Made by a program: the position numbers and the translations under genes. Positions 6,943-9,797 of a stretch of 34,073 nt of DNA are shown one piece after another (position 1 is the stretch's first letter; each line of letters opens with the position of its first letter). The DNA comes from Nitrosomonadaceae bacterium (GTDB lineage Bacteria > Pseudomonadota > Gammaproteobacteria > Burkholderiales > Nitrosomonadaceae), in NCBI GenBank assembly GCA_919902625.1, contig CAKKRO010000024.1:1-34073 (forward strand). Reading direction: 5' to 3'. The notes beneath the pieces are model-generated. The model saw only the letters and a list, made by a program, of their open reading frames with translations, was not told the DNA's origin and searched no databases.

Positions 6943-7803
6943 TTGCCATCAAAATCTGAACGACTGAATACGGCTGATCACAGTCGCGATAACGTTGGGC
7001 TCACTTATGTTTATCCGGTGATCTCACGTCGCGCGGGTGGCGTTTCCATCGGCATCAATCTGAATCCTAACAATGCATGTAACTGGCGATGTGTTTATTG
7101 CCAGGTACCTGATCTTAAACGTGGTTCCGCACCGCGCGTTGATTTAAACAAACTGGAAATTGAATTGCGTTCTTTTCTGCATGAATTGGTCGATGGCGAT
7201 TTCATGCAAAAATATGTGCCATTGGAAGCACGAAAAATTCACGATATTGCTTTGTCCGGTAATGGTGAACCAACCAGTGCGTTGGAATTTGATCAAGTCA
7301 TCGCATTGATTGCCCGTGTAAAAAAAGATTTTAAGTTGCCCGCTGATCTAAAAACAGTGCTCATTACCAATGGCAGTTTAATGAATCGGCCCGCCGTGCA
7401 GGCAGGATTGAAACTGATGGCCGAACTGAATGGAGAAGTCTGGTTCAAATTTGATCGCGCGTTATCCGAAGAAAGACAACACATCAATAATACCCACATA
7501 AGCCTGAAAAGAATTCGCAATCACCTGCAAATCGCAACCTCACTTTGCCCCACCTGGCTACAGACCTGCGTGTTCCAAATAAACGGAGAACCCCCCAGTG
7601 AACTGGAAATCAATGCTTACCTTAAGTTCATCAGGAGCCTAAAAGATGAGGGGTTACCGCTCCAAGGCGTTTTATTGTATGGCATCGCACGCCCTTCTTT
7701 GCAACCCGAAGCGCCATTATTGTCCCGAGTCAGCGAGTCATGGTTAATCGCTTATGGCGAGAAAATCAAAGCGCTGGGCCTGACTGTTAAGCTTAATCCA
7801 TAA
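6943..7803 (+). CDS. Radical SAM protein (TTG start likely; COG0731-like)
   Basis: CNWRCVYC (CX3CX2C) cluster motif, ALSGNGEPT, VLITNGSLMNRPAV; frame begins with TTG at 6943, divergent from queD across a 45-bp spacer. Confidence 0.85.
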   Translation: MPSKSERLNTADHSRDNVGLTYVYPVISRRAGGVSIGINLNPNNACNWRCVYCQVPDLKRGSAPRVDLNKLEIELRSFLHELVDGDFMQKYVPLEARKIHDIALSGNGEPTSALEFDQVIALIARVKKDFKLPADLKTVLITNGSLMNRPAVQAGLKLMAELNGEVWFKFDRALSEERQHINNTHISLKRIRNHLQIATSLCPTWLQTCVFQINGEPPSELEINAYLKFIRSLKDEGLPLQGVLLYGIARPSLQPEAPLLSRVSESWLIAYGEKIKALGLTVKLNP

Positions 7804-7834: not shown

Positions 7835-7851
7835 TTGTAACTAATTTACAA
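7835..7851. promoter_or_regulatory. Dyad TTGTAA-CTAAT-TTACAA upstream of the porin promoter
   Basis: Perfect 6-bp inverted repeat with 5-nt spacer. Confidence 0.3.
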
Positions 7852-7864
7852 CAAAGAATATTTT

Positions 7865-7906
7865 TTGATATTTATCAATGCTCATTTCCTATATAGCTGA
7901 TATAAA
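7865..7906 (+). promoter_or_regulatory. Putative class II FNR-dependent promoter (FNR box TTGATATTTATCAA 7865-7878; -10 TATAAA 7901-7906)
   Basis: Exact TTGAT-N4-ATCAA centred at 7871.5; a start site 7 nt after the -10 hexamer (7913) places the box at -41.5. Confidence 0.6.
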
Positions 7907-8077
7907 TTGCATTTATGTGCAACACATTAATAAATCAGAGTAAAGATACCCAATCTAGGCTTTAAGATAAATTGTTATCACTTATAATGGCGGCCTGGAT
8001 TATTTAAGAAAAGTAATACCGTACGTATTAAAAAGTGTTTTGCCAATAAAAATAAGCTACAAATTTTTGCACAGCAT

Positions 8078-8097: not shown

Positions 8098-8123
8098 GGC
8101 ATTCAGACAACAGGAGTCCCGTA

Positions 8124-9797
8124 ATGAATTCATCAAGCATTTTTCCTTTTTCAGCAAAGCTTATTGCTGAATTAAAAGTGCGTTTGGTAAAAAGCTCACA
8201 GCATTGGTTGCCTAAACTATGCTTATGTATGATCAGCCTATCAGGTGTAACCCTTCAGGCTTATGCATCAAACCCTTCCGCGCCTTCTGCTGATTCTTCT
8301 GCAACAAAAGTTGCCGAAAGCAAGTTTGACATGTCAAAAGTTCCACCGGTGACACCTATGCCGCGCCCTGGTTTATTCATTATGCCCCCAACCAGTCCCG
8401 GCTATTATTCACTCTGGGATATGGTCACCGGTAATAAGCGCGAGAAACCGCCGGTCGCGCCTTATGCTCCCTTTGCACTACTACCTACTTCAGCCTACGA
8501 CATTGATTTTCGTTATCTGGATACGCCAGGGCATGAGAAAGATATTTTTGATCCCATCAAAAGAATGGATCTAGGCAATGATTGGCTGCTATCTTTCGGA
8601 GGTAATTTCTGGTACCGCTACACGCATGAAACGGACAGCCGTTTAAATGCAGCCGGCACCAATAATGACTTCCATATGTTACGCACGCGATTCCACGCAG
8701 ACTTATGGTACAAAGACAAAGTACGTTTATTTGCAGAAGGTATTGACGCGCGCGCTTTCGGTTCTGAATTGCCTCCGCTCGTGACGGACAGGAACCATGC
8801 GGATATATTGAATCTGTTTACCGATATCAAACTGGCTAATGTCAATAATGGCCCCGTTTATGTCCGTGCGGGTCGCCAAGAATTACTGTATGGTTCACAA
8901 AGACTGATTTCCACTTTGGATTGGGTCAATACCCGCAGAACCTTTCAGGGTGTAAAAGCATTCTGGCGCACACCGGGATGGGATATTGATGCATTCTGGA
9001 TGCGCCCCATGGTCATCGAAAAAGGTAATGTCGATAATTGGGACACAAATCAGAATTTTTATGGATTATGGGCTTCTCATAGACCCAAACCAGGTCATTT
9101 GATTGATCTCTATTATCTCAGTCTGGATAACAATCGAAATGTTTCCCCTACCAATCTATCGCTGGGCAACATCATGCAAGGAAACTCGCTTGTCCATACG
9201 CTGGGTGGCCGTCTTGTAGGAAATATCGATAGCTTCCTGTATGAATTGGAAGGCATGTATCAGTTTGGTCAAAGATCGAATCTGGATATCTCTGCCTTTG
9301 CCGTGGCTACGGGTGTAGGTTATCGCTTACCCATGCCTATGAATCCGCAAGCCTGGATACGTTATGATTTTGCATCAGGCGATGGTAAATCCACTGATGG
9401 CCGAAGCAATACATTTAACCAGCTGTTTCCTTTTGGCCATTATTATATGGGCTTCCTGGATCGGGTAGGACGTCAGAATATACACGACTTCAATGCACAA
9501 TTTACTATGCATCCTGTTCCTTGGATCACATTCATTTCCCAATATCATCGATTCTATCTGGCGAACAATCGCGATTATTTGTATAACGCAGCCGGACTTG
9601 CCACATTGCGGGATATCACCGGTCAATCGGGTAGTCATATCGGGGATGAGATTGACTTCCGGGCAAATTTCCATGTAAATCGCCACCAGGATGTATTGGT
9701 TGGATATTCAAAAATGTTCAGTGGCAATTTCCTGGAAAAACAAGCCCCAGGAATTTCCCCTGACCTTTTCTATGTTCAGTACAACATTCGCTTTTAG
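8124..9797 (+). CDS. Alginate-export-family outer-membrane beta-barrel protein
   Basis: AlgE-like features: FGGNFWYRYTHETDSRLNAAGTNNDFHMLRTRFHADLWYKDKVRLFAEG, RAGRQELLYGSQRLISTLDWVNTRRTFQGVKAFWR, QLFPFGHYYMGFLDRVGRQNIHDF, C-terminal YVQYNIRF. ATG 8124 preceded by CAGGAG; the ORF-track start at 8040 lies in the leader. Confidence 0.88.
   Translation: MNSSSIFPFSAKLIAELKVRLVKSSQHWLPKLCLCMISLSGVTLQAYASNPSAPSADSSATKVAESKFDMSKVPPVTPMPRPGLFIMPPTSPGYYSLWDMVTGNKREKPPVAPYAPFALLPTSAYDIDFRYLDTPGHEKDIFDPIKRMDLGNDWLLSFGGNFWYRYTHETDSRLNAAGTNNDFHMLRTRFHADLWYKDKVRLFAEGIDARAFGSELPPLVTDRNHADILNLFTDIKLANVNNGPVYVRAGRQELLYGSQRLISTLDWVNTRRTFQGVKAFWRTPGWDIDAFWMRPMVIEKGNVDNWDTNQNFYGLWASHRPKPGHLIDLYYLSLDNNRNVSPTNLSLGNIMQGNSLVHTLGGRLVGNIDSFLYELEGMYQFGQRSNLDISAFAVATGVGYRLPMPMNPQAWIRYDFASGDGKSTDGRSNTFNQLFPFGHYYMGFLDRVGRQNIHDFNAQFTMHPVPWITFISQYHRFYLANNRDYLYNAAGLATLRDITGQSGSHIGDEIDFRANFHVNRHQDVLVGYSKMFSGNFLEKQAPGISPDLFYVQYNIRF

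Follow-up and report, generated by a model that had tools for sequence, protein, structure and literature searches.

The porin gene at positions 8124–9797 (forward strand) appears to be read from two promoters: P1, a class II promoter predicted to depend on FNR, and P2, a separate basal promoter. We give this model a probability of about 0.72. At low oxygen, FNR carrying its 4Fe-4S cluster would dimerise on the box TTGATATTTATCAA (7865–7878, forward strand), an exact TTGATN4ATCAA, and would recruit RNA polymerase to the extended -10 element TG-A-TATAAA about 30 bp downstream. Transcription from P1 would then begin near 7911–7913 and yield a leader of about 211 nt, and P2, with its TATAAT at 7983–7988, would start near 7995, the expected outcome being basal porin expression plus an extra contribution at low oxygen. 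FNR binding to the box is very likely and FNR activation of P1 at low oxygen is likely; given a conserved FNR box on the porin gene, the gene is probably turned up at low oxygen. The window, which is the whole 34,073-nucleotide stretch analyzed, is contig 24 of a 2.09-Mb assembly that is 85% complete, and the nearest named relatives of the source genome are Nitrosomonas.

The 557-residue product matches PF13372 (Alginate_exp) with 383.5 bits against a cut-off of 25.2 (E 1.3e-114), with barrel residues 156–549 covered, which bears out the assignment to the alginate-export family made in the sequence-only reading. The surroundings do not fit an AlgE-type role in alginate secretion: the porin gene stands isolated beside radical-SAM and hydrolase genes, with no alginate operon. 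Searches bearing on the porin substrate gave no NCBIfam match and no PDB chain matching by sequence. Translation would use the ribosome-binding site AGGAG (8112–8116, forward strand), 7 nt before the ATG at 8124, and ACAGGAG is kept in most syntenic porin promoters. Because the gene 3′ of the porin gene lies on the opposite strand, the porin gene is apparently monocistronic and probably transcribed alone. On its 5′ side is the radical-SAM gene (6943–7803, forward strand, PF04055), which served as the synteny marker and adjoins the porin gene in 41/41 of the promoters compared; no terminator was found between the two genes, and no Rfam match at E<=1 was found in the porin leader. Four genomes (G020, G027, G016, and G033; loci L049–L052) carry a second porin copy elsewhere, 72–89% identical, without an exact box or the upstream element described below.

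The box owes its weight to conservation. We compared 41 distinct promoters from Nitrosomonas genomes in which the same porin gene lies beside the same radical-SAM gene; 12 of these were gathered with a box-containing pattern, and the remaining 29 were collected through protein homology and synteny with the box unused. Among these 29, the box is exact in 22, matches at 9/10 positions in one, and is missing from six that belong to two lineages; the corresponding counts over all 41 promoters are 34, one, and six. Conservation in homologous promoters was a check proposed in the earlier reading, and it came out in favor of the box. The two half-sites average 1.97 bits per column, compared with 1.21 for the four spacer columns and 0.59 for the flanks. 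When the promoters are mapped onto a radical-SAM protein tree, the box need have switched state only twice, and its presence on several well-supported branches indicates that it is old. The lineages without it are the N. oligotropha group and G006/G002, both of which keep FNR. From this pattern, selection acting on the box is close to certain. In the N. oligotropha lineage (L025, L026, L032, and L065), where the box has been lost, the upstream element is now a better inverted repeat, TTGTTGATTTACAACAA.

Numbers alone do not make the box significant. The sequence confirms that it is centered at 7871.5 and that TATAAA lies at 7901–7906, both as first described, and it is the sole exact TTGATN4ATCAA within the window. 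From the 67 TTGAT and 108 ATCAA occurrences in the window, 0.21 exact boxes would be expected there and 13 in the assembly, in which 16 are found, several of the other 15 falling within reading frames. We therefore dropped genome-wide enrichment as a proof; a reversed-pattern control, which gives one box, greatly overstates the enrichment. Another exact box (L005:1501, equivalent to G000:C127:14916) lies 111 bp upstream of a second Alginate_exp gene. Coregulation of that gene was considered and rejected, as the box is absent from 19/19 related loci and is probably a chance match. These observations would suit the view that the porin box, too, arose by chance, a view already refuted by conservation, since the box has been kept over deep splits in the genus with only two state changes on the tree.

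The genome also supplies the regulator. Three genes carry an HTH_Crp_2 domain, and the product of one passes the NCBIfam FNR cut-off (NF008365, 251.7 bits against 228). In an alignment with E. coli FNR (43% identity), its C31/C34/C40, C133, and ETVSR fall on the corresponding residues; judged by its four cluster cysteines and its E..SR recognition helix, this protein is a true FNR. Homologues occur in 83/85 genomes of the genus and in 70/70 of the good genomes, so that an absence of FNR homologues, which the sequence-only reading had named as grounds for abandoning its proposal, does not arise. In 6/6 loci examined, fnr carries its own TTGATTCAGATCAA-type box just upstream, with the cysteine motif 111–128 bp further on; such boxes are seen at L014:1501–1514 (equivalent to G000:C238:36574–36587) and in L111–L116. 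This suggests that fnr is autoregulated and favors TTGATN4ATCAA as the sequence recognized by the Nitrosomonas FNR. The porin box could in principle be bound by another protein of the CRP/FNR family, given that the genome has two more HTH_Crp_2 genes and that the recognition helix of the C127 protein contains REAVSR. We regard this as very unlikely: both extra proteins score below the FNR cut-off and lack the FNR cysteine motif, and it is fnr itself that bears the same box motif.

The spacing between the box and the P1 -10 element (7898–7906, forward strand) is conserved with it. The offset from the start of the box to TGATAT is 33 in 32 of the 35 box-bearing promoters and 32 in a single lineage, represented by two promoters; L067 carries TGATTT in place of TGATAT, at offset 33. 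This spacing stays near-constant while the distance from the box to the ATG ranges from 185 to 287 bp. Taking TG-n-TAT as an extended -10 gives the box a position of roughly -39.5 to -41.5 relative to the start that it predicts, within a putative start region at 7911–7913 (forward strand). Of the 23 E. coli promoters that FNR activates directly and whose starts are known, 19 have the FNR site at -41.5 ± 4 (PMC3688515). The figure of -41.5 had been given for this promoter at the outset, and position 7913 does lie 41.5 bp from the box center; the start itself, however, was assumed, and 7913 is a T. As T7913 is an untypical start base, A7911 is the likelier start purine, which would put the box at -39.5. 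Bases 7878–7883, located 17 nt before TATAAA, read ATGCTC and form no -35 hexamer, as expected of a class II promoter, and a promoter scan returned no promoter using 7901–7906 as its -10. The P1 -10 closes with A rather than the usual T in 96% of the promoters, which makes for a poor sigma-70 match and implies that P1 should depend on an activator. The poor sigma-70 match also counts against the two-promoter model, as do the absence of the box from two lineages that keep FNR and the phasing of P2 described below.

The same stretch of DNA can be read as a site of repression, in which the box would overlap the -35 region of a promoter with its -10 at TATATA (7890–7895) and FNR would block that promoter at low oxygen, or, in a variant, would sit over the -10 element of a promoter whose -35 is TTTACA (7845–7850). 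Upstream of TGATAT, TATATA/TATAAY shows moderate conservation, and TTTACA-16-GATATT, spanning the box, is picked up by the promoter scan. These hexamers, however, decay in several species (TATGTA, CAAATT, GATCTT) where TGATAT stays, and TTGATA would require a spacer of 19–21 nt; both forms of the repression reading taken together are therefore improbable. TTTACA with GATATT was rejected as a promoter in its own right, the second hexamer being lost in the TTGATC lineages.

The conservation of two further features went unnoticed in the sequence-only reading, which is incomplete to that extent. The first is P2 (7961–7988, forward strand), which consists of TTTAAG, a 16-nt spacer, and TATAAT (7983–7988), followed by the G+C-rich GGCGGCC. 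The TATAAT is present in 39/41 syntenic promoters, including 5/6 of those without the box; TTTAAG lies 16 nt upstream of it in many promoters, and a G+C-rich stretch usually follows. A basal promoter is the best interpretation of the hexamer. It had been mentioned earlier as an alternative start that would replace P1; it does appear to be a real, conserved promoter, additional to P1 rather than a substitute for it, and the leader of approximately 210 nt proposed at that time would accordingly belong to transcripts from P1, only a part of the total. The second feature is the element TGTnnCnnATTTACAACA (7836–7853, forward strand; TGTAACTAATTTACAACA in the window), whose TGT and TTTnCAACA are invariant or nearly so in 40/41 syntenic promoters, the box-less lineages among them. 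It is absent from the nonsyntenic porin copies and is probably the site of a second factor. As a genome-wide motif, TGTnnC...TTTACAACA was set aside, since its counts with 3 mismatches equal those of the control.

The spacing between the upstream block and P2 takes values in three ranges, 130–135, 141–143, and 150–157 bp. Parsimony on the tree gives eight large changes in this distance (-11, -22, +10, +10, -12, +10, +8, and -11), which at 10.5 bp per turn have a mean cosine of 0.79 (p about 1e-4 against a simple null of uniform sizes from 4 to 25); seven independent pairs picked by hand give p = 0.014. The control distances, P2 to ATG and block to ATG, show no such phasing. Because the test was made post hoc, once the pattern had been seen, and the ancestral states are uncertain, it is suggestive only that the distance shifts mostly by about whole helical turns, and it hints that the upstream block may also act on P2. 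If the phasing is true, the block would touch polymerase at P2, perhaps via a loop.

One might go further and suppose that the box acts mainly on P2, with FNR and the TGTnnC...TTTACAACA factor placed on the helix face that polymerase occupies at P2 and repressing or tuning P2 from afar, for instance by DNA looping, and with P1 weak or silent. The phasing of block to P2, unmatched in the distances to the ATG, fits this idea, and, measured from the predicted P2 start, the position of the box is about -123.5, -135, or -144.5; repression of P2 by FNR is conceivable because E. coli ompW is repressed through a distal FNR site, at -126.5 (PMC4886647). Besides the post hoc nature of the test, the phasing holds in a box-less lineage as well, and the constant 33-nt spacing from box to TGATAT is left unexplained, so we consider this arrangement rather unlikely. 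Somewhat doubtful is a combination in which FNR activates P1 as a class II regulator while the block and the TGTnnCnnATTTACAACA factor reach P2 over about 12–14 helical turns, with phase kept across the genus by whole-turn insertions and deletions.

The proposed FNR switch resembles known systems. In the E. coli class II FNR promoters narG, nirB, and dmsA, TTGATN4ATCAA is centered about 41.5 bp upstream of the start (PMC3688515), and a comparable placement is predicted here; unlike those promoters, the target is a porin in a lithotrophic ammonia oxidizer, with an extended -10 TGnTAT and a second promoter. Control of an outer-membrane porin gene by FNR is known from E. coli ompW (PMC4886647) and is predicted here from sequence. 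OmpW, however, is an unrelated small β-barrel, and FNR acts there at -81.5 and -126.5 (PMC4886647), whereas the porin gene here has class II geometry. For Nitrosomonas itself, an earlier prediction from a partial-nitritation anammox reactor includes an FNR and assigns FNR sites to the upstream regions of 65 genes (PMC8510549); the main text of that report names no porin or alginate-export gene, and the parts covered, unlike the analysis here, describe no cross-species conservation test. In the text searched of papers on Nitrosomonas at low oxygen and on comparative proteomics, the porin is not mentioned. The porin gene would thus be a new target for an ordinary, well-known switch, and the two-promoter layout is unusual.

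At low oxygen, ammonia oxidizers switch to reducing nitrite and produce N2O, so that a channel induced under these conditions would be a candidate for the passage of nitrite or other small solutes. The conserved box and its predicted FNR would tie an outer-membrane channel of an ammonia oxidizer to oxygen sensing, a link absent from the main text of PMC8510549.
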